Assembly: GCA_902362805.1 (NCBI GenBank)
Contig: CABIXY010000005.1
Coordinates: forward strand, 124,001 to 188,000
Direction of reading: 5' to 3'
Source of the DNA: Eubacteriaceae bacterium
GTDB lineage: Bacteria > Bacillota > Clostridia > Peptostreptococcales > Anaerovoracaceae
DNA length: 64,000 nt
Of this stretch, positions 31,739 to 64,000 are shown one piece after another. The stretch's first letter is position 1. Every line of letters starts with the position of its first letter. Made by a program: the position numbers and the translations under genes. The notes under the pieces were generated by a model that was not told where the DNA came from, searched no databases, and saw only the letters and a list, made by a program, of their open reading frames with translations.

Positions 31739-32161
31739 CTATTCCGATTTGATGACGTCTTTGCCCATCTCCGTCAAAGCTCTGGACGGCAGATTACCAA
31801 AGTCCACCCCAGGGTTCTGCGCCTTTGCTGCGGCTTCACCTATGCGTACCAGTTCCCCAGAAAGCATATTTCCCAAATCACGGGACTTGATGTTTCCCAT
31901 ATCCACTTGCGGGCTGTTCTGTAAAGTCTCAAATTCCTGTAATCCTGCCTGCTGCTTCTTGATCTGCATCAAAGCAAGCAGACCCTCTGGAATACCGTTG
32001 CTTTTTGACTGGGTCGATTTTTGCTGATTAATGGCCGCCATAGCTGTATCGCCAGGCTGCTTAAGGTCGCCCTGTACCACTGGAATACCTTCGTTTTTTG
32101 GTTCCCTTACATCTGAAGCACCAGTCATGACGTTGTTTTCTGTTATTCCTTGCATTTTCAA
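31739..32161 (-). CDS. Protein of unknown function, low-complexity N-region
   Basis: 140 aa. I use the TTG at 32161 because GGAGG lies eight bases ahead; the ATG at 32155 is the alternative. The protein is hydrophilic, without signal peptide or membrane helix. It contains two similar segments, VDMGNIKSRDLGNML and VDFGNLPSRALTEMG, an internal duplication of about 15 residues each separated by ~30, and a Gln/Ser-rich N-half. No family recognised. First gene before the OFA-type carrier, so they may be one operon. Confidence 0.6.
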   Translation of the reverse strand: MKMQGITENNVMTGASDVREPKNEGIPVVQGDLKQPGDTAMAAINQQKSTQSKSNGIPEGLLALMQIKKQQAGLQEFETLQNSPQVDMGNIKSRDLGNMLSGELVRIGEAAAKAQNPGVDFGNLPSRALTEMGKDVIKSE

Positions 32162-32174
32162 AATATACACCTCC

Positions 32175-32710
32175 GTAATTCTTATATTGAAGTTTGATTA
32201 TCTTTCTCGTATAACAGGGCACAATACTGTAAAGTACGCCCTGTTTCATCTAGGAAAGGACCGAAATTATAATAAAACGAAACCTTCGACGATGATGGAA
32301 TTCGTACTAAATCATCTCTGCAGCGATTGTCAAGTAAGCACAGTAAAATCTTGTGCGACACTTAACTCACTTTGAGAGACTGCCGTTGATTATATGATCC
32401 CAAATACATATTTTGTCGAATTTTATCGTATGGATAGTGTTTGCGAAAATAAGAATTTCATGCAAAGGAGATGCTAAAGAATCATCTTGTAAAGGATTGC
32501 TTTTTTGATTTGAGGGTAATTGCCTTGCCGGCTTTGGCTTTTATGGTATCAGAAATAACGCTGAAAGCCTATTGTGCTCGGCTCCAACGTTTGCGATTCT
32601 ATGGATTTCTGCCCGATCTTTTGCTTCGTAGAATGGTGATAATGGTGAATGCTGAACTCCGCATAATCCACATAAGATGTGCCTTTGATATTACAGGGCG
32701 TACAAAAAAA
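32175..32710. other. Gene-free stretch between the unknown gene and the CRISPR array end
   Basis: About 535 bp. A hairpin ACAGGGC / GCCCTGT lies at ~32214-32247. Open frames here lack ribosome-binding sites or recognisable sequence. It is downstream of the array in transcription and may hold old, eroded spacers and repeats, but I could align none beyond 32711. Confidence 0.4.
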
Positions 32711-32776: not shown

Positions 32777-34213
32777 ATTTCAATCCACGCACTCCATGCG
32801 GAGTGCGACATTTTCACCTTTCTTTGCATTTTTATTATGCTGCATCATTTCAATCCACGCACTCCATGCGGAGTGCGACACTGTCAACCTGGGATAGAGT
32901 TGGCGACATGGGGATTTCAATCCACGCACTCCATGCGGAGTGCGACACCTCCATGATTACTGCTCGCACCTGCGGTCGGAATTTCAATCCACGCACTCCA
33001 TGCGGAGTGCGACTCAAAGAAGACCGATTTTTCCTCGAGCGGAAACATTTCAATCCACGCACTCCATGCGGAGTGCGACTATAGCGACAGGTGTAGCGAC
33101 TGTTTACAATCGAATTTCAATCCACGCACTCCATGCGGAGTGCGACGTGCTTGCCGTAGCAGGAGGTTGATTTCCGTTTATTTCAATCCACGCACTCCAT
33201 GCGGAGTGCGACCCTCATACATCTTAGTAAGTTTTAGATAGGGATTAATTTCAATCCACGCACTCCATGCGGAGTGCGACATATGGAGCTAAAAATCAAT
33301 TGATTGTAGCAGCGATTTCAATCCACGCACTCCATGCGGAGTGCGACCCTTTTTAACGGAGGGCAGATTGGTTGGTGGGTAAATTTCAATCCACGCACTC
33401 CATGCGGAGTGCGACGCAGGATACTCAATCCCGAGACTCTATACAAGCGATTTCAATCCACGCACTCCATGCGGAGTGCGACAAGACCCCTATATACCTA
33501 ACGTGCAAATGTAAAATTTCAATCCACGCACTCCATGCGGAGTGCGACCCCTATTTTTGCCTGTTGCGCCATGTTTTACATATTTCAATCCACGCACTCC
33601 ATGCGGAGTGCGACTTATGGTCGCCAAGAATTGTTGGATAGGTGGATTATTTCAATCCACGCACTCCATGCGGAGTGCGACAAAGTTTTTGGTGTACCGT
33701 CTACAGTTTTAGGTATTTCAATCCACGCACTCCATGCGGAGTGCGACATCTATGTGTTTATCCATGTTTTTACCTTTGATTATTTCAATCCACGCACTCC
33801 ATGCGGAGTGCGACTCATATTTTCTAAGTGTGTTTCTTCTATTGTTGTATTTCAATCCACGCACTCCATGCGGAGTGCGACAACATTTTTTATACTTGAT
33901 GATGGTATAGGTACAGATTTCAATCCACGCACTCCATGCGGAGTGCGACGTGATGTAAAATGGCACAAAATGATTCAGCAGATTTCAATCCACGCACTCC
34001 ATGCGGAGTGCGACCTGATACCGATGTAGTATTATCTCCCCATATTTATTTCAATCCACGCACTCCATGCGGAGTGCGACCAGCTTTAACTACTACGGCA
34101 AACAATGTAATGGATTTCAATCCACGCACTCCATGCGGAGTGCGACCTCATAATTTTTTACTTTTACCGAATCAGTATCTATTTCAATCCACGCACTCCA
34201 TGCGGAGTGCGAC
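32777..34213 (-). CRISPR. Type I-C CRISPR array, 22 identical repeats
   Basis: 22 copies of a 33-bp repeat (plus strand begins ATTTCAATCCACG, ends GGAGTGCGAC; repeat-sense strand GTCGCACTCC..GGAGTGC..GTGGATTGAAAT) at starts 32777, 32847, 32914, 32981, 33047, 33114, 33180, 33248, 33315, 33383, 33450, 33516, 33582, 33649, 33715, 33782, 33849, 33917, 33982, 34048, 34114 and 34181. The 21 spacers are 32-37 nt, mostly 33-35. The stem is GCACTCC/GGAGTGC with a GCAT loop. The sequence is the canonical I-C type and the array lies directly downstream of cas2 in the same direction. All copies read as identical, suggesting an active, recently maintained array. No spacer was noticed to match elsewhere in this window. 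Confidence 0.98.
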
Positions 34214-34378: not shown

Positions 34379-34669
34379 TTATACCATCAAGATACCTTCT
34401 GCTTTATAACTTTCTTTAGCTCCATAATGTTCGACTTTTGTCTCATAGTTATTTCCAAGATTATAAAACCGAAGGCTATCTTGGCTCTCATCAATAATTG
34501 ACAACAGCTTATCTTTCAGCAGTAAGGCCTGCGATGCATCAAGTATGCACTCAAATACCGAGTTCTGCACTCTTTGACCATAATTCACGCACTCCTTGGC
34601 GACTTTACGCAGTCTTCTCTTTCCGGCACCATCCTGGGTAGACACATCATAAGTAATCAAAACTAACAT
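34379..34669 (-). CDS. cas2: CRISPR-associated endonuclease Cas2, type I-C
   Basis: 96 aa, normal length. Ferredoxin-like fold with MLVLITYDVSTQDGAGKRRL, the Asp being the metal ligand of the family, and RVQNSVFECILD. With Cas1 it forms the spacer-integration complex, in which Cas2 is a structural centre. Last cas gene before the leader, 12 bp after cas1. Confidence 0.97.
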   Translation of the reverse strand: MLVLITYDVSTQDGAGKRRLRKVAKECVNYGQRVQNSVFECILDASQALLLKDKLLSIIDESQDSLRFYNLGNNYETKVEHYGAKESYKAEGILMV

Positions 34670-34681
34670 ATATCACACTCC

Positions 34682-35713
34682 TTACTTCCATAAAAATGGC
34701 GGATAACTCTCCAAATCGCCTCGAATCGTTCGTGCCAAAAGCATCGCCTGCACATATGGCACCAATCCCCAGGGAATCTTTTCATTGAGGAACGGATGCG
34801 TAATCGTTTCCTTTTTACGCTGCTGCCATGCGGCAAAAAACTGCTTTCTTCCTTCATCACTTTGCAAAACGGCACCATCACCTTGATAATCAAAATGCTC
34901 TCCTTTAATTATTTTTTTATTAATCAAAGTCAGAGCAAATCGGTCAGCCATGATACCACGCAGCTCTTCCATTAAATCTAACGACAGCGATTGTCTGCCC
35001 GGTCTGTCCCGATGCAAAAATCCAACATACGGGTCGAGACCCACGCTTTCTAGCGCCGCTGCACATTCGTTGCCAAGAACAGTGTATGCAAAAGAAAGCA
35101 GAGCATTGATGTTATCCAGAGGTGGTCTCCGATTGCGTCCATGAAATGCAAAGTCCGATTTTTGATTGATGATTAACTCATCAAATACATAGAAATAGCG
35201 GGAGGCCAATTCTCCCTCAATTCCCCTGAGGGTATCCAAATCTTCACAAACTCTGATCTGTTCCAGACCCTCATTCAATTCTTGGGAAACTCCTTTGATG
35301 CGCTCCGTGTCTACTCTCATCCCATTATCGCGAATTGTACGTTCCAAACTCCATCTGCAGTTAAAAACTTTGCCTAGGATCATGTTCCTCGCATATAGTG
35401 CACTTCGATTCAAATCATCAGAAATTCGATATTGCTCTTTGCGAAGCAGCACATTTCCATAAGACCGTCCCGAAACCCTCGCCAGAAATCTTCCTCTCGG
35501 AGAATAAAAGCTGAGATCAATGCCCTTCTCCGCGCATGCTCCCATCAAAGACGGTGAAGCACCCTTATAAGTAAAGCTGACGATATTCTCCAAAGTATGT
35601 AACGGAAACCTGCCAACGGTCTCTTCATCACGCAGGATGACTATATTTTCTCCATCTAAGGCAAGGTAAACGTCCTCTGACATTACATAAAGCGTATTCA
35701 ACAGTTTTCTCAT
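34682..35713 (-). CDS. cas1: CRISPR-associated integrase Cas1, type I-C
   Basis: 343 aa. N-terminal beta domain (LNTLYVMSEDVYLALDGENI) and helical catalytic domain with metal ligands in LGNECAAALESVGLDP (Glu), GFLHRDRPGRQSLSLDLMEE (His, Asp/Glu). It cuts and joins new spacers at the leader end. Starts inside the cas4 stop (ATGA overlap), so translation is coupled. Confidence 0.97.
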   Translation of the reverse strand: MRKLLNTLYVMSEDVYLALDGENIVILRDEETVGRFPLHTLENIVSFTYKGASPSLMGACAEKGIDLSFYSPRGRFLARVSGRSYGNVLLRKEQYRISDDLNRSALYARNMILGKVFNCRWSLERTIRDNGMRVDTERIKGVSQELNEGLEQIRVCEDLDTLRGIEGELASRYFYVFDELIINQKSDFAFHGRNRRPPLDNINALLSFAYTVLGNECAAALESVGLDPYVGFLHRDRPGRQSLSLDLMEELRGIMADRFALTLINKKIIKGEHFDYQGDGAVLQSDEGRKQFFAAWQQRKKETITHPFLNEKIPWGLVPYVQAMLLARTIRGDLESYPPFLWK

Positions 35714-36381
35714 TCTCCGCCACCCGTTCCAGAAAGCCTTTCCTTGATATATTGTTCCACGCTAAGTGTTTTGTTCAGTTTCGGCAGACAAAGGTCTTTT
35801 AGCGAACAGGATCGGCATTTTTTATTGGTCTTTACCTTTGGTGTATAACCTCTTTGATATAACCCGTGCATCTCGTGACAAATTTCTTTCACGTGTAGCC
35901 GTAGTTCTTCATCAAAAAGAACCTCTGTCCGCCGTTTATTTTCCCCATAATATAAATAACCTTTGGGGATTTCGGTCAGAAACATCTCCTCCAGGCACAT
36001 GGCCTGGGCGCAAAGCTGAACTTCATCTTCACGCCCTTCTTTTTCTGTGCCGCGCTTGTACTCTACAGGCATTAGATTCCAATTGCCATCGTAGCCCGAA
36101 ATCGTGATACCTGACTTCACTTGCTGAAACTCCACAATATCACATTGTCCCGACACACCTAACTCTGCTGAGGCGATACGAAGCCCTCTCATGATCAACA
36201 GCTTGCCGCGCTTCTCCACTGATGTCTCTTCGTGAGCCCTTTTGTGCATCAATTCCCCGGCGGTGGTTCGATAGTTCTCTGCCCACTGCTGTTCGATATG
36301 GATCAAAGCCCACTGCCTGCGGCAGAATTCAAAGTGTTGAATGCCTGAAAGCATTAGATAGTCAGATTCTAAATAAGCCAT
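35710..36381 (-). CDS. cas4: CRISPR-associated exonuclease Cas4
   Basis: 223 aa. RecB-family nuclease: LSGIQHFEFCRRQWALIHIE with the first Cys, HKRAHEE, MPVEYKRG (motif III), and the C-terminal Cys cluster CRSCSLKDLC that holds an iron-sulfur cluster. Cas4 trims prespacers and selects those with a correct PAM in type I-C adaptation. Two bases after cas7; overlaps cas1 by four. Confidence 0.95.
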   Translation of the reverse strand: MAYLESDYLMLSGIQHFEFCRRQWALIHIEQQWAENYRTTAGELMHKRAHEETSVEKRGKLLIMRGLRIASAELGVSGQCDIVEFQQVKSGITISGYDGNWNLMPVEYKRGTEKEGREDEVQLCAQAMCLEEMFLTEIPKGYLYYGENKRRTEVLFDEELRLHVKEICHEMHGLYQRGYTPKVKTNKKCRSCSLKDLCLPKLNKTLSVEQYIKERLSGTGGGE

Positions 36382-36383
36382 TG

Positions 36384-37301
36384 TTATATCTTTCTCGACA
36401 CTTCGACAGTCTCAGGAACCATATCTTTGTGTATCGTCACATCATAATCGCCATACTCTCTCGGATATTCAACATCCTCTTTCTTCTTTACCTCGATAGT
36501 TTCAAACAGCTTGTGTGCAGGACAGTCTCCCAATTCTGTACTATGCTTGAATACAATCAGTTCTCTCACTGCCATTTTTCCTCTAGCTGCAGAATGGTCG
36601 ATTTCAAACATATTGATCATTGCCTGCCAAAGGAGCTCCAGGTCGTCTTCAGAAAATCCGGTCACTTTTTTCGCCAGATTAGCGGAAATATAGCCTTCCG
36701 CACGATAAAGTGCGTATGGCACGATGCTCTTACGGCCCATTTCCGTTTTCTTATCTTCAGCATCTTTTTCTGTAGTAATTGCTACACGGGTAATCGTAAT
36801 GTCCTGGCTGATAATTGGATCAATACTCCTTGCAAAACCCAGCTGTACCGGACCTCTCACCTGTCCACAATTCAATGCCGCTTTTACAAAGGTAGTCATC
36901 ACTGCACCAAAAGTTCTGATATCAAAGAAGTTCCGGCACATAAAGTCTCGTACTTTTAGGTCAATGTCCGGGTCTTTCTTTTTCGCATCTTTTACAGTTT
37001 TTTCATCAAGTCCAAGATACTTATATGCGGTAGCATCACTTCGATTAAGCGGAATATCCTCTTTGATGTAGATTTTATAGCCCTGCTCTCCTTCGCTGAT
37101 ATCCTGACCATAATCAGGATCTTTTACCGTTGCCACATAGTTCCGGATTTTCCTCTTTAAGCACACATCAGTTACAATGCCATATCCGCTTTCTGGATCA
37201 ATTCTTGGCAGATTGCCCGCGTCTGGATCACCATTTGGATTTCCGTTTTCCACATCAAAAAGAATCACGAATTCATACCTGTTTTTAATTGCTTCACTCA
37301 T
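36384..37301 (-). CDS. cas7c: Cascade backbone subunit Cas7 (Csd2), type I-C
   Basis: 305 aa from MSEAIKNRYEFVILFDVENG; GAGGAGG precedes this ATG, so the longer reading from 37409 is rejected. RAMP fold: FVILFDVENGNPNGDPDAG, LKRKIRNYV, DIRTFGAVM and VRGPVQLGFARSIDPI are the hallmarks of Csd2. Several copies line the crRNA; their thumbs flip out every sixth base of the guide, the property relevant to the pseudo-crRNA at 42074. Confidence 0.96.
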   Translation of the reverse strand: MSEAIKNRYEFVILFDVENGNPNGDPDAGNLPRIDPESGYGIVTDVCLKRKIRNYVATVKDPDYGQDISEGEQGYKIYIKEDIPLNRSDATAYKYLGLDEKTVKDAKKKDPDIDLKVRDFMCRNFFDIRTFGAVMTTFVKAALNCGQVRGPVQLGFARSIDPIISQDITITRVAITTEKDAEDKKTEMGRKSIVPYALYRAEGYISANLAKKVTGFSEDDLELLWQAMINMFEIDHSAARGKMAVRELIVFKHSTELGDCPAHKLFETIEVKKKEDVEYPREYGDYDVTIHKDMVPETVEVSRKI

Positions 37302-37305
37302 TTTT

Positions 37306-39108
37306 CTATTCCTCCTCTGATTTTTTCTCATAACGTTTCTGGGTTTGATGGTAATACCCGAGAATAAACATTCCCTGCTCTTCCAAAGACAGCCGTCTCG
37401 GATATGCAATCATCTGATCATCCGTAACTGAAAATCTGCTCTGAATATCCGTTAACATCTTTTCAAAGTTGATCTTGATCCCAACATTCTTCCGCTCCAC
37501 CTTTTTCATATGGCTGTTTTTCAGCTTCAGTAAAATCGGAAAAATAGATGCTGGCGTAGCACAAGCAGAATTGAAATACCTGTCTTTGATGGTCGAATTG
37601 ATCTTGTTGTCAGCAGATTCTTCTTGAATATGCTCAAGAACCGCAAACATTCTTCCCAAATTATATGGAATGTTCTTGCTATTTTCATTTAGTCCCACGG
37701 TAATCTCCTCCTTTTCTGATAAACGTGTGTTTCTGATTAAGTAAGCTTTGATAATCGCTGCTCTTCCTCTTGTTATCTTATAAATCCTCGCATCTGGATC
37801 GTCCTGTTCCGCTGTAATTCTCTGCAAAACAGCCTGATAAAGTGTCTCTGGATATCTGTTCCCAGATAAAATTGCCTTAAATGCAGCACCGCCGATGTTG
37901 TCAGGCGGTTTTTTATCCTTCGACTTTTTGTTCACAATTTCCTGAAGCATCCGCCACGTTCCGAGATATTCTATGGAATCAATGGCAGGACGCACGACTT
38001 CCATCCGGTCGTAGTGCTCTTTTAAATGTCTCAATATGTTGCCAAAGCTATCCTCATAGAAAAATCTCACGGAAAGCCTGGCGGCGTTAGGAGACAGGCC
38101 TAGAATATAGAATTTCTCATCAGGTGATATTCCAGATAGCACCCCTTCTACGTCAATTACGCCGCCTTTTTCTAAATTCTCAAAAACACTGCGGATGATT
38201 TCTTGATTGTCCACAGTGGGTTCACTAATATCGGCAAAGGCGTTTTGATATTTTTCTTTACCACTTTCTGACCAGTAAACCACCATTGTATCGCCAATCG
38301 CGCTTCTGAACGGATACCCTTTAATATCCTTTGTATTGATCAGATAATTCAGTGCCGTTGTATATCCGTACACTGCCTCTTCGCCAACAGGGGCGTTATA
38401 GCTCTGTTCTTTTCCATAAGACAGAAATGCCGGTGCATTAAAGCCGATCAAAGAAGCTCCGCTGGATTGTGCGCCAGGAACCCCCTTGATCAGCCCATGG
38501 ATTCTTGCAATCTCTGTTTGTTTTCCTGTAACCAGACAGATCCCCTTCTCTCCTCTTTGCTTCTGATTATAAAATTCCGTCCAAGCCGCTCTAATTTCGG
38601 AATCATCTTGAGCAAAATTTCCATCCACATAGAAGACCAAATTCGATGCAGCGCATAACTCCTCAAAGTTTTCGCTAATTATCAGATTGGCCTCTGCTTC
38701 ATCCTGGTTCCAATTTTGATAAAAGGATTTTATCGCTTCTGCAATATCGGAATGAACATTCTCCAAAATCTGTAAGTGCCTCTCTTTTGACGCTTCAAAG
38801 CATTCTTTTGTCCTCTTAGGTTTTCCCTTTGTATCGACTCCAAGAATATAACTGGAATTATCGCACAGAAAGTTTGGTGAAACCCCCGAAGACCTGGTTA
38901 CCTGCTCGGGCACTTCTTTTGACTGTGGCACTTCGACTGTTTTCTTCCCCCTCACTTCTTCATTTTTTAAAGGGATGACGCCTAAAAGTTCCCCTTCTGA
39001 AGAAATATCCAGACCTATTGCCACCTTTGCGCTGCACCAGCCAGGTCTTGTAACCTTGCCCGCGTCTGCAAGGTGCTCATAATATTTTACTAAAGCTTGC
39101 AATATCAT
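37306..39108 (-). CDS. cas8c: Cascade large subunit Cas8c (Csd1)
   Basis: 600 aa. The ATG at 39108 (MILQALVKYYEHLAD) shares one base with the cas5 stop (TGATG). The opening, the GLDISSEGELLGVIPLK region and GYYHQTQKRY near the C-terminus are typical Csd1. It recognises the PAM (TTC in I-C systems) and recruits Cas3; an internal start may also produce the small Cas11c subunit, as shown for other I-C systems. A candidate internal start was not resolved. Confidence 0.95.
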   Translation of the reverse strand: MILQALVKYYEHLADAGKVTRPGWCSAKVAIGLDISSEGELLGVIPLKNEEVRGKKTVEVPQSKEVPEQVTRSSGVSPNFLCDNSSYILGVDTKGKPKRTKECFEASKERHLQILENVHSDIAEAIKSFYQNWNQDEAEANLIISENFEELCAASNLVFYVDGNFAQDDSEIRAAWTEFYNQKQRGEKGICLVTGKQTEIARIHGLIKGVPGAQSSGASLIGFNAPAFLSYGKEQSYNAPVGEEAVYGYTTALNYLINTKDIKGYPFRSAIGDTMVVYWSESGKEKYQNAFADISEPTVDNQEIIRSVFENLEKGGVIDVEGVLSGISPDEKFYILGLSPNAARLSVRFFYEDSFGNILRHLKEHYDRMEVVRPAIDSIEYLGTWRMLQEIVNKKSKDKKPPDNIGGAAFKAILSGNRYPETLYQAVLQRITAEQDDPDARIYKITRGRAAIIKAYLIRNTRLSEKEEITVGLNENSKNIPYNLGRMFAVLEHIQEESADNKINSTIKDRYFNSACATPASIFPILLKLKNSHMKKVERKNVGIKINFEKMLTDIQSRFSVTDDQMIAYPRRLSLEEQGMFILGYYHQTQKRYEKKSEEE

Positions 39109-39764
39109 CAAACCACCTCGCAATTTCTAAGGTCGAGGATGCCGTTTTTTAACTCTGCCCGGAAAAACATAGGCTGAATATTCTCAGGATCCGAATAATC
39201 GAGATCATACAGCATATAACCTAAATCTTTTATTTGACCTGCGTATGCAGTCTCAATCTCCGTTCCCTCATACAGTTCAAAGTTCACGGGGAACTCTCTG
39301 CAGCCAAAATATGGTGTGTGGTAGCACTGTCCCCTCCGCAGTCGTCTCATGATGGTGTCCTTGAACTTTCCCTCATTGTCACTTTCATTGGCATTTTCCG
39401 TCATCTCAAAGTGTGCGTCGATGACGTAATCTACATTTCGCAGGATGATTGCCGCCCTCTGTGCAATATCTTCTTTCGTTGAGATGTACAAAGGCTTTTC
39501 TCCGCCATTCATTGCAGACAGTACGCTTGTTGCCTGAATTTTACTTTTCACCTCATTTCTTCTTACACTGGTAAATTCGATAGGATTTCTCACATAAATT
39601 CTATCGATAATCCAGCGCATTCCCGGATGCCAATAAATGGCTTCCAAAATTCCTCGGGCTGCCGATGGGGTCATAACGTCATAACTACATCGCTCCACCT
39701 TCATCTCTGGACGGGAAAACAGTGCATAGTCCCCCCACACATGTACCCGTACTCCATGACTCAT
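39108..39764 (-). CDS. cas5c: Cas5c (Csd5/Cas5d), crRNA-processing Cascade subunit
   Basis: 218 aa from MSHGVRVHVWGDYALFSRPE, with AAAGGAG seven bases upstream, which rejects the start at 39791. YDVMTPSAARGILEAIYWHP is the Cas5 signature. In type I-C, which lacks Cas6, this subunit cuts the repeat at the base of the stem and leaves an 11-nt 5' handle (TGGATTGAAAT here). The same activity would be needed on the pseudo-repeat at 42087-42098. Confidence 0.96.
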   Translation of the reverse strand: MSHGVRVHVWGDYALFSRPEMKVERCSYDVMTPSAARGILEAIYWHPGMRWIIDRIYVRNPIEFTSVRRNEVKSKIQATSVLSAMNGGEKPLYISTKEDIAQRAAIILRNVDYVIDAHFEMTENANESDNEGKFKDTIMRRLRRGQCYHTPYFGCREFPVNFELYEGTEIETAYAGQIKDLGYMLYDLDYSDPENIQPMFFRAELKNGILDLRNCEVV

Positions 39765-39780
39765 ATCATCACTCCTTTCT

Positions 39781-41958
39781 TTAACCTTCAAACATAATTC
39801 CGATACCGGTTTCCATCACTAATTCCAAACCGTATTGTTCTTTATACTGACTTTCATCTGTCAGAACGGCAAAGCCCTCAAATAACGGTTCTTTTATGTA
39901 ACCCAAGTCATGTAGAGCATCGTACTCCTTTTCATACAGATTGACGCTGTAGCGTCCGGCATCCCGCATCAGCTGCTTGGAGTAGAAACCTTCTTCTAAT
40001 TTTGCTGCAATTTCTTTCGCCTTCGGCTCCAGGGGGATCAGTACCGTTTTTGTCTCCTGTTCGATCAACTGAAAGGCATCTGATACTGTTTTAAAGGGGA
40101 AATTCCAGGAATTCACTGCATTTTCAAAGGCATCCACGATGAACTTTTTATCGATTCCGTCCCCTGTAACCTTATAAAGATTCTTGAAATATTCATGAAT
40201 CGGCTGCAATTCTGAAATATCTTCGTATTTGCGGACCACCTGTTCCGCCACCGAAATCGGTCTTCTCATACTGCTCGGTAGTGATGTATTCTTTTGACCC
40301 TCAAATGTAAAATAGACTGTTTTACACTGATCCATAGGCCGCTTTCCTTCCCGGTTGCAGCGGCCAGCCGCCTGAATAATAGAGTCGATACCCGCGAGCT
40401 GTCGCCATACCGATGGAAAGTCCACGTCTACGCCAGCTTCAATTAAACTTGTAGATATTACTCTACACGGTTTTGACGACTTTAAACGTTCTCGGATTTT
40501 TTCTAAAATTCTTTTTCTATGGTCAGGATACATCAAGGTGGATAAGTGATAGCTACCCTCTACGCCTTCATTCTGCAATTGTTTGAACACACGGCGAACA
40601 CTTGCTCTGCTGCCTAGGATGCATAAGGCCTGTTCCTGCTCTTTTAAGCAATCGATCAAAAACTCTTCTGAAATCTGCCCGATATTTTCAACCTGCGTTC
40701 TTTTAAAAAACTGATATTGATCCTCCACATTAGGACAAATCTCTTGTATGTTTGCCGATACTGCTTTAGGGAAGTGTTCGTTCAAAGCCGGCTGCGTTGC
40801 TGTACAAAGCACGGCAGTGCAGTGATAATTATAGACCAATTCACTGATTGCCCGTATGCATGGCAGCAAATAGTCCACTGGCAACATCTGCGCCTCGTCA
40901 AAGATGATAATGCTTTTTGCTAGGTTATGTAGCTTCCGACACTTTGACGTTTTATAAGAAAATAGTGACTCAAAGAACTGGACGTTGGTTGTCACGATCA
41001 CTCTCTTATCGTAGTTCTCTGCCGCTAACTGATATTTTTTGAGTTCATCCGGGTCGTCAAAGGTAACGTTACAGTGGTCTTCTAATACATTCTGGTCACC
41101 AAAAATATTTCTAAAAACCTGGGCATTTTGTTCTATTATGCTGGTGTAAGGGATTACGTACACAATTCGTTCTAGGTTGTGCTCTACTGCGTGTCGCAAA
41201 CCGAAAGCCATAGAGGCTATCGTCTTTCCACCTCCCGTAGGGACCGTCAGTTGAAAGAGTCCTTGTTCAGCCTGTCCTTTTTCAAGACAGGCTTTTAAAA
41301 TTTCTGTTCTACGGCCATTGACAGTATTTCGATCTGTATTTCTAAGCCATGGAGTTACGTGTTGCTCCAACATTTTAAAAAGTACATCTATTGAGTCACT
41401 TTTCGGCCGCACCACAGCTCCATTGCTCATAAATCTTTCTGTGTCCAGATAGTCTGCATCTACAAGGCAGGAGAAGAGCATTCTCGTGTAAAACGCTAAA
41501 CTAAATCCTCCCTTCTCAATGGACCTTAAAGGCGGGGCTGGAATTTTGGGAATATCGATTCCTTTTAAGAAATCACTGTAATCCTCAAGTTTCTTCCCCA
41601 TTCTACCGTGCAAGGTCGATGTCCCGGTGCCATTACCAGGCGTACCGCCATCTGGCAAGCCTGCATGATGACCGGCTACGCAATAAGCTGCAAGAATATT
41701 GGAAAGTCCACCAATGTCGTATAGTTCCTTCGCTCCTGCAGTGGAATGATCTACTATTGGACCATCGTGCAACCGGTTCCAAAAAGCAGTGGTTCCTTTG
41801 CCAATATCGTGAGTTCTACCGACTGCTTTTCCCTGTTCCTCACAGTCAAAGGCTTTTGCAAATTGCCCAGCAAGCTCTGCAGTGCCTGTCAGATGGTCCG
41901 TTAAGGTTTGTTCTCTTGTCTCGTCCTCACTGATGTGGGCGAGGTATTTTGTTTTCAT
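39781..41958 (-). CDS. cas3: CRISPR-associated helicase-nuclease Cas3
   Basis: 725 aa. HD nuclease domain first (residues ~1-200): TDHLTGTAELAG, RTHDIGKGTTAFW, VDHSTAG, GHHAGLPDGG. Then SF2 helicase: PTGGGKTIASMAFGLRHAVE, DEAQMLP (motif II), TATQPALN, and IQAAGRCNREGKR (motif VI). It is recruited after target recognition by Cascade and degrades DNA 3'-5'. AAGGAGGTG ribosome-binding site. First gene of the cas operon, preceded by a near-consensus promoter. Confidence 0.97.
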   Translation of the reverse strand: MKTKYLAHISEDETREQTLTDHLTGTAELAGQFAKAFDCEEQGKAVGRTHDIGKGTTAFWNRLHDGPIVDHSTAGAKELYDIGGLSNILAAYCVAGHHAGLPDGGTPGNGTGTSTLHGRMGKKLEDYSDFLKGIDIPKIPAPPLRSIEKGGFSLAFYTRMLFSCLVDADYLDTERFMSNGAVVRPKSDSIDVLFKMLEQHVTPWLRNTDRNTVNGRRTEILKACLEKGQAEQGLFQLTVPTGGGKTIASMAFGLRHAVEHNLERIVYVIPYTSIIEQNAQVFRNIFGDQNVLEDHCNVTFDDPDELKKYQLAAENYDKRVIVTTNVQFFESLFSYKTSKCRKLHNLAKSIIIFDEAQMLPVDYLLPCIRAISELVYNYHCTAVLCTATQPALNEHFPKAVSANIQEICPNVEDQYQFFKRTQVENIGQISEEFLIDCLKEQEQALCILGSRASVRRVFKQLQNEGVEGSYHLSTLMYPDHRKRILEKIRERLKSSKPCRVISTSLIEAGVDVDFPSVWRQLAGIDSIIQAAGRCNREGKRPMDQCKTVYFTFEGQKNTSLPSSMRRPISVAEQVVRKYEDISELQPIHEYFKNLYKVTGDGIDKKFIVDAFENAVNSWNFPFKTVSDAFQLIEQETKTVLIPLEPKAKEIAAKLEEGFYSKQLMRDAGRYSVNLYEKEYDALHDLGYIKEPLFEGFAVLTDESQYKEQYGLELVMETGIGIMFEG

Positions 41959-41978
41959 TTCATCACCTCCTTAGGATC

Positions 41979-42007
41979 ATTATATTCTCACGCAATCAAA
42001 AAGTCAA
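41979..42007 (-). promoter_or_regulatory. Promoter of the cas operon
   Basis: Minus strand TTGACT (42007-42002), exactly 17 bp, TATAAT (41984-41979); the cas3 ATG lies 20 bp past the -10. It is near-consensus, so strong unless repressed. Confidence 0.88.
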
Positions 42008-42008
42008 C

Positions 42009-42045
42009 TTCAATATAAAAAGAACTGAAATATTTAATTTGCATG
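42009..42045 (+). promoter_or_regulatory. PAM and protospacer-like target beside the cas promoter
   Basis: TTC (42009-42011), the I-C PAM, is followed on the plus strand by AATATAAAAAGAACTGAAA (42012-42030). Compared with the pseudo-spacer at 42099 onward, positions 1-19 match except 6, 12 and 18. The PAM lies one base outside the cas -35 box (42002-42007). The protospacer end also covers the -35 of the pseudo-crRNA gene. Bound Cascade would block the cas promoter. Confidence 0.8.
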
Positions 42046-42067
42046 CCTCTTTCTTGTATGATAAAAT
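42039..42067 (+). promoter_or_regulatory. Promoter of the pseudo-crRNA gene
   Basis: TTGCAT (42039-42044), 17 bp, TAAAAT (42062-42067); predicted start near G42074. Divergent from cas3. Confidence 0.7.
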
Positions 42068-42073
42068 ACTCTT

Positions 42074-42140
42074 GTCTAGGAAACTAGTGGATAGAAATAA
42101 TATGAAAAGGACTGAGAAGCCAAGCTTCTCTTTCTTTTTA
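42074..42140 (+). ncRNA. CreR/CreA-like regulatory pseudo-crRNA
   Basis: Short transcription unit divergent from cas3. From the predicted start: GTCTAGGAAACTAG (a small stem with GAAA loop in place of the normal 7-bp stem), then GTGGATAGAAAT (42087-42098), 11 of 12 identical to the CRISPR repeat 3' end, i.e. the 5' handle with one T-to-A change. The pseudo-spacer starts AATATGAAAAGGACTGAGA (42099). GAGAAGC-CAA-GCTTCTC (42114-42130) plus TTTCTTTTT make a terminator that forms its 3' part. The first 19 nt match the TTC-flanked site at 42012 except at positions 6, 12 and 18. Partial pairing of this length lets type I Cascade bind without Cas3 cutting, so the RNA should repress cas transcription. 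Similar guides (CreR, and CreA of CreTA modules) are described in other types. No CreT-like toxin RNA was identified. Confidence 0.82.
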
Positions 42141-42239
42141 TATTTCATAATATTCTGATATTATTATAACATTGTGTAAACCTCAAGTAAAGTATCTAGA
42201 GAGTTCAATATTTAATACTTCGGAAAGAATCTGAAACTT

Positions 42240-42505
42240 TTGGTTCTATACCACGCCGATAAAGAAATCATTGAATTTCCTGAAGTACATAAGACTAGAT
42301 ATAAAAAACCCCTCGTGATTTTTACTGTGCCAACAAATTTGACCAAGGAATACGCTGAGCAAATCTCAGCAACAGCACGGCAATTATCAATTCATACTCT
42401 TATAAGGCAGAGTTTATATATCGTACCCGTCAAATCAGCTCCCACACGCTAGCAGCACTTGACTTCCTTACCTTCAAAGAAAGCGAGGTAATTTATAACC
42501 GATAA
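42240..42505 (+). pseudogene. Remnant of a DUF3990 protein
   Basis: Frame 1 encodes VLYHADKEIIEFPEVHKTRY, the N-terminal pattern of DUF3990 (an ADP-ribosyltransferase-like family). The middle of the domain is missing or scrambled. A second frame gives YRTRQISSHTLAALDFLTF then KESEVIYNR and a stop at 42503-42505, the family's C-terminal end. A frame change near 42420 and an internal deletion make it non-functional. No ribosome-binding site or normal start. Confidence 0.7.
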
Positions 42506-42937
42506 ACAACAAAACGATTTTTTCTACGTATGCTCTCTCATCGAGTACACAGCACGTAAAACGAATAACCGAAGAGATGCGATCATAGATGCTCTTGGAA
42601 AAGACGGCGTGCGAAGCAGTTGAAGGACGCAGAGGTTAGCCACTGCCTATCCTTTGAACAGGTCAGGGATGAAATCATAGATATCTACGGCATCAAACCT
42701 GGTGATTTTGATACCATAACAAATTGCAGATACACGATTCCCGGTTTCATGGATATTGGCAGGCTCTACTCCATTATGATCGAAGACTGCGCAAAGTCTG
42801 GTGAAGAAGTCAATGAAATGATCAAAATCTTCAAATCTTTTATCAGTGACGAGATTTCAAATTTCAAAACCGGTGTTTATTACCAGAATCCGGATTATTT
42901 AGAATGGTCTTACAGAGAAGGGCAATTACTAGATTAA
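42506..42937 (+). pseudogene. Frameshifted DUF3791-type protein
   Basis: In one frame QQNDFFYVCSLIEYTARKTN and NRRDAIIDALGKDGVR, then after a single missing base near 42613 the frame changes and continues KDAEVSHCLSFEQVRDEIID .. ISNFKTGVYYQNPDYLEWSY .. LLD to the stop at 42937. Together they rebuild one ~144-aa DUF3791 protein. No start codon is found at its beginning. DUF3791 usually follows DUF3990 as a pair, thought to be toxin-antitoxin-like; here both are decayed. A terminator follows. Confidence 0.75.
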
Positions 42938-42946
42938 TATAAACGA

Positions 42947-42984
42947 ACAGCTGGCAGGTATCTCCTGCCAGCTGTATTTTTTCT
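42947..42984 (+). terminator. Strong terminator after the DUF3791 remnant
   Basis: 12-bp perfect stem ACAGCTGGCAGG / CCTGCCAGCTGT with TATCT loop, then ATTTTTTCTT on the plus strand. It lies five bases beyond the end of the facing kinase gene and may serve it too. Confidence 0.85.
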
Positions 42985-47320: not shown

Positions 47321-47345
47321 TTTATCTCTTCCTTTCACGTTTTCA

Positions 47346-47575
47346 TGGATTCCTTCCTTGCGGCAACGCCGTAAGATTATGGAACTATTATACCATGACG
47401 ATTCCTATAAAAATACAATCGAACGTCATGATTCAATGGTTCCTTCTTTGCGGCAACGCCGTAAGATTATGGAACCATTATACCGTGACGATCCCTATAA
47501 AAATACAATCGAACGTCATGGTTCAATGGTTCCTTCCTTGCGGCAACGCCGTAAGATCTTGGAACCATTATACCA
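47346..47575. repeat. 90-bp tandem repeat, about 2.6 copies
   Basis: TCCTTCCTTGCGGCAACGCC starts at 47351 and returns at 47441 and 47531, a period of exactly 90 bp. Units differ at a few positions (TTCTTT, ACCGTG, GATCCC, ATCTTG). Each unit has a GGTTCC..GGAACC stem and a CATGACG..CGTCATG stem, alternating. It lies between DUF1805 and the ATC hydrolase-like gene. The period is a multiple of three and stays open in one plus-strand frame, but there is no ribosome-binding site. Confidence 0.9.
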
Positions 47576-47613
47576 CATTCTTTCGAAGCTGTGATATCAA
47601 TTTCTGTTCGTCC

Positions 47614-63768: not shown

Positions 63769-63792
63769 AATAGGGAAGTCCTTTCAATCTGT

Positions 63793-64000
63793 ATTTCAAT
63801 CACTTGCTCCATGCGGAGCAAGACGATATTTGAAGAAGTGTATGAAAACGCTAAAATCATTTCAATCCACTTGCTCCGCAAGGGAGCAAGACCAGAGCAG
63901 GCAGGAGACTGGATGGCGCAGTGGAATTTCAATCCACTTGCTCCGCAAGGGAGCAAGACCTAAGTGGCGTTCTTTAACACATGCCGTTTTGGTATTTCAA
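63793..64000 (-). CRISPR. Second I-C-family CRISPR array, cut by the right edge
   Basis: Repeats at 63793-63824 (32 bp, degenerate end repeat), 63859-63892 and 63926-63959 (34 bp each) and the start of another at 63994; spacers of 33-34 nt. Repeat-sense strand GTCTTGCTCCCTTGCGGAGC..GTGGATTGAAAT: stem TTGCTCC/GGAGCAA with a CTTGC loop. Handle identical to the first array, stem different by compensatory changes. Orientation is the same, so the leader lies beyond the right edge. Whether it has its own cas genes is not visible. Confidence 0.93.

Follow-up and report, generated by a model that had tools for sequence, protein, structure and literature searches.

A predicted small-RNA gene beside the type I-C cas operon of the window, as we call the whole 64,000-nt stretch of DNA analysed (all coordinates are window positions), carries a shrunken CRISPR repeat and an 18-19-nt guide that likely direct Cascade to bind next to the cas promoter, repressing it without cutting. 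Guide and target differ at every sixth base only, and the same design is found in related loci, in which guides and targets have changed together. The reading offered by the initial annotation, a Cascade guide autorepressing the I-C cas operon, is supported by these observations, the repression itself being predicted from sequence.

Guide RNA gene and target in the window

The cas genes belong to type I-C by profile search (Cas3c, Cas5c, Cas8c, Cas7c and Cas1c) and follow each other from cas3 to cas2 almost without gaps on the minus strand (Table 1). Between the divergent cas3 start and a stretch of decayed genes, on the plus strand, lies a predicted gene for a small RNA of ~67 nt, so that a crRNA-like gene with CRISPR repeat-like sequence adjoins the cas genes. 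Its promoter (TTGCAT-17-TAAAAT), already proposed in the initial annotation, was recovered both by reading and by script (42039-42044 and 42062-42067).

Table 1. Features of the type I-C cas locus and of the divergent guide RNA gene (window positions)
Feature	Position	Strand	Basis or remark
I-C CRISPR array, 22 repeats	32777..34213	-	repeats end (- strand) in TGGATTGAAAT
cas2	34379..34669	-	profile
cas1c	34682..35713	-	profile
cas4	35710..36381	-	profile
cas7c	36384..37409	-	profile; longest ORF, true start probably later
cas8c	37306..39123	-	profile
cas5c	39108..39791	-	profile
cas3	39781..41958	-	Cas3c profile; start at 41958 divergent from small-RNA gene
Predicted cas operon promoter, TTGACT-17-TATAAT	41979..42007	-	11/12 consensus matches
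Predicted cas -35 (TTGACT) and -10 (TATAAT)	42007-42002 and 41984-41979	-	consensus
TTC motif (I-C PAM) of target	42009..42011	+	sequence
Target AATATAAAAAGAACTGAAA	42012..42030	+	16/19 identical to guide; mismatches only at 6, 12 and 18
Predicted guide RNA promoter, TTGCAT-17-TAAAAT	42039..42067	+	sigma-70-like
Predicted guide RNA transcript, ~67 nt	42074..42140	+	ends inferred from promoter and terminator
Shrunken repeat stem-loop, CTAG-GAAA-CTAG	42076..42087	+	four-pair stem, abuts handle without gap
I-C 5′ handle TGGATAGAAAT	42088..42098	+	10/11 versus array handle TGGATTGAAAT
Guide (pseudo-spacer), 19 nt	42099..42117	+	sequence
Intrinsic terminator, 7-pair stem and T tract	42114..42141	+	hairpin 42114-42130; covers last guide bases
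Decayed PDC-M10A (DUF3990) and PDC-M10B remnants	42240..42931	+	profile matches, broken frames; flank the element

In the array repeats (minus strand) the handle TGGATTGAAAT stands directly 3′ of an eight-pair stem. The small RNA keeps this register, its stem being flush with the handle, but the stem has four pairs. Together with the preceding G, the handle TGGATAGAAAT is identical to the array repeat end at 11 of 12 positions, just as had been described for the pseudo-repeat, and the pseudo-spacer and intrinsic terminator, likewise described as divergent from cas3, are where they were said to be. The predicted transcript folds at -18.5 kcal/mol (z -2.66). In the full-length fold, guide positions 5-13 pair with the U tract of the terminator, whose hairpin overlaps guide positions 16-19, and the guide would therefore have to be freed by binding or trimming. 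Membership of a known RNA family was considered and rejected, the two Rfam matches in 41900-42400 being miRNA families far below their gathering scores. Within 63790-64000 begins a second array whose I-C-type repeat differs but whose handle is identical; it runs past the window end.

The guide-target match held exactly as annotated (16 of 19 bases, the three differences falling on every sixth base), and so did the TTC before the target, which ends one base from the predicted cas -35. The further claim that the target covers the -35 of the small-RNA gene stands in part: the paired 19 nt stop 8 bases short of it, and it would take a protospacer of full length (~33-35 nt) to get that far. The assertion that a mismatch period of 6 nt is hard to obtain by chance was borne out by a window-wide count. 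Over 127,966 guide positions on both strands, with the array at 32.8-34.2 kb excluded, 13 guide-site pairs in which the site is flanked by TTC and lies within 400 bp match at 15 of 15 non-sixth positions. Eleven of these join copies of direct repeats (in the tandem repeat at 47.3-47.6 kb and in the second array near 63.9 kb) and the other two are the guide-target pair itself and its mirror image, which leaves it as the only pair of that quality besides direct repeats. No other window site reaches 13 of 15 non-sixth positions with this guide.

Some minor features of the window deserve mention. The tandem repeat consists of three copies of a 90-bp unit (47342-47611). At 32188 on the minus strand, just upstream of an ORF at 31739-32170, another site flanked by TTC agrees with the guide at 12 of 15 non-sixth positions, probably by chance. 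The first five guide bases also occur, preceded by TTC, at 42207-42214, upstream of the decayed M10A; this is possibly a lost second target, and it is short enough for chance.

Proposed mode of action

Every sixth base of the guide is flipped out in Cascade, and we propose the following chain of events. The guide RNA would be transcribed from its predicted promoter and cut by Cas5c at the base of the small stem, leaving an 11-nt handle, and the processed guide would then be loaded into Cascade. Pairing with the target in three blocks of five would be too short to license Cas3, and bound Cascade would hinder RNA polymerase at the cas -35. A shortage of Cascade, competition from array crRNAs or anti-CRISPRs would release the promoter, predicted to drive all seven cas genes. 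As the small-RNA promoter lies beyond this target when seen from the cas promoter, the guide may limit itself too.

Conservation in related I-C loci

The best 80 of 234 matches to a cas3 query were combined with 30 loci from the 41 genomes that matched when 397 genomes of one family were searched; removal of 11 duplicates and addition of the window gave 100 distinct I-C loci, which are related and not independent. The main scan looked for an isolated handle followed by a guide that matches, no more than 420 bp away, a site flanked by TTC or TTT, with linkers of 0-2 bases between the five-base blocks. It was positive in 43 of the 100 loci of this sample (best 80 of the 234 cas3 matches included), counting the window and the doubtful L106, and failed in 57, and each of eight control trinucleotides returned 0 loci. 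With single-base linkers and sites within 400 bp, a TTC pair was present in 33 of 100 loci and a TTC or TTT pair in 37, and nine other trinucleotides gave 0. TTT takes the place of TTC before the target in L068, L070, L074, L079 and L080 (uncultured Clostridia, Bacillota, Angelakisella and twice Oscillospiraceae).

When pairs anywhere in a locus were selected on guide positions 1-5 and 7-11 only, starting from 327 isolated handle-like sites with at most 2 mismatches, 99 pairs were obtained: 28 preceded by TTC, in 28 loci, 4 by TTT, 53 by AAT (array repeats of L016 and L021 account for 50) and the rest at one or two per trinucleotide. Taking the guides at six shifted offsets left 0, 0, 0, 0, 2 and 1 TTC pairs. 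Of the handle shuffles, thirty that differed from the real handle by 5 or more letters gave 0 loci (26 shuffles) or 1 locus (4 shuffles), and one of 40 shuffles, only two letters apart from the real handle, gave 20 loci. A chance origin is thus disfavoured by the window-wide, trinucleotide, offset and shuffled-handle controls alike.

A working set of 45 elements, defined by criteria separate from those of the main scan and overlapping incompletely with its 43 loci, was used for structure and placement; L005 (an array artefact) and L106 (doubtful structure, still counted in the 43) were excluded from it. Local inspection of 21 loci outside this set found five that had passed the main scan with linkers of 0-2 bases (L010, L034, L042, L049 and L057), a 14 of 15 match in L052 whose target is too close to the locus end for the main scans, and a stem and handle with a poor target in L022 and L035; most others of the 21 had no convincing element.

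Beyond this sample, none of 8 plasmid-borne I-C loci from other phyla or classes, picked from 50 matching plasmid records, had the element. Among further Clostridia Cas5c loci with 1.5-kb flanks, which often miss the region before cas3, 2 of 27 were positive; these derive from 30 loci taken of 61 matches in 60 of 391 genomes, less 3 duplicates (two of them copies of the element-bearing L077 and L086). Among the 11 other loci with cas3 more than 55% identical to that of the window, only L003 has the element.

Every one of the 45 working-set elements is oriented divergently from the cas genes. The element follows cas3 in 42 of them and precedes it in three (the window, L003 and L100). Sorted by the size of the cas3-cas5 gap, it is present in 33 of 49 loci with a gap of at least 150 bp, 3 of 34 with a smaller one (all three before cas3) and 9 of 17 for which the gap size is missing. 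Since most element-bearing relatives have it between cas3 and cas5, the targeted region there precedes cas5, and in the window the whole operon. Between element and cas3 of L003 there is also a PD-(D/E)XK nuclease-like remnant (L003:3642-3908).

Six-base period, co-change and conserved structure

A selection blind to the period (no more than 1 handle mismatch, 13 or more matches out of 18, flanking TTC or TTT) kept 35 loci, with match rates of 0.37, 0.06 and 0.40 at positions 6, 12 and 18, of 0.74-1.00 at all other positions up to 17 and of 0.14-0.37 at positions 19-30; five control trinucleotides gave 0, 1, 0, 0 and 0 loci. Position 12 thus matches less often than 6 and 18. The best match had single-base linkers in 35 of the 43 main-scan loci, and in the other 8 (L010, L014, L028, L034, L042, L049, L057 and L102) the target is without exactly the base opposite guide position 12. 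Other linker combinations never came out best, under a scoring that favours single-base linkers.

Among 157 locus pairs whose guides differ at 1-5 non-sixth positions, changes in the guide are mirrored in the target for 499 of 599 non-sixth differences and 18 of 320 sixth ones, a contrast partly forced because selection required matches at non-sixth positions. As the loci are also related, we regard co-change as supporting, not independent, evidence. Clustering of the 45 guides gives 27 groups; a guide and its own target agree on average at 14.1 of 15 positions, versus 6.7 for cross-locus pairs.

Structure is retained as well. A stem of at least 4 pairs within 1 nt of the handle is found in 35 of 45 elements versus 27% of shuffled flanks, and these stems are diverse yet paired (CAGG/CCTG, CTGG/CCAG, CGAG/CTCG, CAGC/GCTG, CTAG/CTAG and others). 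In the 60 nt after the guide, 42 of 45 elements fold at -15 kcal/mol or lower versus 11.8% of shuffles, a hairpin that may also end cas3 transcripts. The check proposed in the initial annotation, a search of related I-C loci for a conserved divergent element with covarying promoter targets, therefore came out positive, with its 43 of 100 loci, parallel changes, varied paired stems and consistently divergent orientation. The location between cas3 and cas5 in most element-bearing relatives, the M10A/M10B genes that often come after the targeted promoter and their remnants beside the window element go beyond what that annotation had noted.

The M10A/M10B module

M10A, M10B or both are present in 24 of the 100 loci examined, the remnants that flank the window element included; in the 23 other loci they come after cas3, usually just behind the targeted promoter. 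M10A of the relatives is DUF3990, and family profile and fold fit the ART clan, to which PMC7955679 assigns that family. Structural matches of the M10A model include, besides other ART folds, the RES and ParT toxins of toxin-antitoxin pairs, and the M10B model is all-helical.

The element shares features with CreTA and CrePA: CreA, as PMC9458426 describes it, combines a spacer that partly matches a promoter close by with one or two degenerate repeats, as is also seen in the window, and in many relatives an ART-fold gene lies behind the targeted promoter. It is possible, though on balance unlikely, that the ancestral job of the guide was to hold down M10A and M10B (an ART-fold protein and its helical partner), which would be released on loss of Cascade as in CreTA and CrePA, with cas autoregulation remaining in the window after decay of the module. 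The element is present in 16 of the 24 M10 loci, and where a relative has both, the M10A start follows the target by 21-205 bp in 14 of 15 cases (2.1 kb away in L036). In L032, M10B and cas5 are one base apart, so that one promoter could drive both. Against this, 29 of the 76 loci without M10 also have the element, and 8 of the 24 M10 loci are outside the 45-element set, although two of them (L010 and L049) passed the main scan; moreover, the targeted promoter of the window precedes cas3, and its M10 genes are broken and on the other strand, leaving no intact protein-toxin candidate under the targeted promoter.

Autorepression of cas and control of M10 could also coexist. We tentatively suggest, as a broader idea that may well prove wrong, that I-C Cascade of Clostridia runs its own operon through a three-block guide (5+5+5 paired, the sixth base free, sometimes the base opposite 12 missing) and that in M10 loci the same guide silences the ART-fold toxin-like pair, one promoter making both alarm and replacement Cascade when Cascade is disabled.

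Position of the target relative to promoters

Promoters were called by simple consensus and 43 elements were scored, leaving out L025 (no small-RNA promoter called) and L028 (late entry). By these predictions the target is mostly between the small-RNA promoter and the operon promoter, with the exception of L100, where it is found at the opposite side of the gene for the small RNA; the operon promoter called in several same-strand loci is weak or distant. The stretch formed by the PAM and 18 nt overlaps the small-RNA promoter in 11 of 43 cases, the operon promoter in 8 and either in 18, so for RNA polymerase to be hindered the Cascade footprint would have to extend beyond the paired bases.

That the guide mainly limits its own transcription, with a secondary effect on cas, appears improbable: PAM and target do overlap the predicted promoter of the small RNA in 10 of 23 opposite-strand cases, but 19 of 20 same-strand cases, the window included, are free of such overlap and 7 of these 20 overlap the predicted operon promoter instead, and a purely self-regulating guide has no obvious benefit. 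We give still less credence to Cascade upstream of the -35 activating or altering the promoter instead of repressing it. Many targets do lie just upstream of the predicted -35 and not over it, but six of the 20 same-strand cases (the window, L059, L070, L078, L079 and L086, of which L070 and L079 carry TTT) have a PAM whose end is 1-2 bases away from the called operon -35, and guides of this kind act as repressors according to PMC13131331 and PMC12737573. A functionless array-end relic or a solitary-repeat decoy (Racr-like) is hardly credible, for although in L056:6245 (minus strand) the regulatory guide follows a degenerate repeat, itself behind another array-type repeat, suggesting an array-end origin, guide-target co-change, PAM specificity and period are unexpected for either; the element lies in a complete cas locus, and its region is without near match in the phage collection.

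Relation to known systems and significance

Repression of cas by a guide has precedents. In type II-A, tracr-L is a natural single guide that represses the cas9 promoter; it is alike in that a short guide turns the effector on its own promoter, and differs in being type II, with Cas9. The crRNA-like elements of Shmakov et al. 2023 are reportedly standalone repeats, mostly of type I, that partly match cas promoters, and may include I-C cases.

The closest likeness is to CreR: a crRNA-like RNA, partial complementarity to a cas promoter (which in the window is called by consensus only) and the logic of autorepression, as described in PMC13131331 and PMC12737573. CreRs are named in types I-B, I-E and V-A in the former, and in type I and V-A in the latter, whose text makes no mention of I-C. 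The window element differs in being I-C, with a single shrunken, short-stem repeat, a terminator hairpin after the guide and three five-base blocks; repression is here predicted. By its Cas3c, Cas5c, Cas8c, Cas7c and Cas1c the window falls outside the named I-B, I-E and V-A types and would extend the CreR family. We regard the I-C element as CreR-like by anatomy, and CreR function as probable. A literature search, mostly of papers outside subscription, returned no I-C cas-regulating guide in the titles and abstract beginnings found; the novelty of the I-C case is provisional, and an earlier listing of I-C cases is possible.

If the proposed autorepression holds, RNA-guided cas autoregulation would extend to type I-C and, as the survey suggests, would be common among the I-C loci of Lachnospiraceae and of certain other Clostridia. 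Natural guide-target pairs would then be an evolutionary read-out of the bases that Cascade reads, namely 1-5, 7-11 and 13-17, with none beyond 18. The M10 link would make a candidate defence pair a testable CRISPR-guarded module, and editing with native I-C systems would have to reckon with this brake.

Phage-borne counterparts

RNA anti-CRISPRs (Racr), which include an I-C example (PMC10651486), share the solitary I-C repeat unit. In contrast, the window element is in what is probably a host cas locus and not a phage, has a matched target and is predicted to be a regulator, not a decoy; the region 41900-42960 gave no near match in the phage collection, and the element adjoins a complete cas locus.

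Separately, four related viral contigs (L159:1297, L166:2053, L192:2960 and L194:129-143, minus strand) each carry a solitary I-C-like stem and handle, an almost identical guide (with variation at positions 6 and 13) and then a hairpin. A search of 391 genomes for the target of this phage-borne guide returned 3 pattern matches versus 5 for the reversed control, as expected by chance, and of six stretches in viral contigs that fit the pattern for Cas3 relatives, none encodes one. By eye, L166 also encodes recombinase-like and lysin-like proteins.
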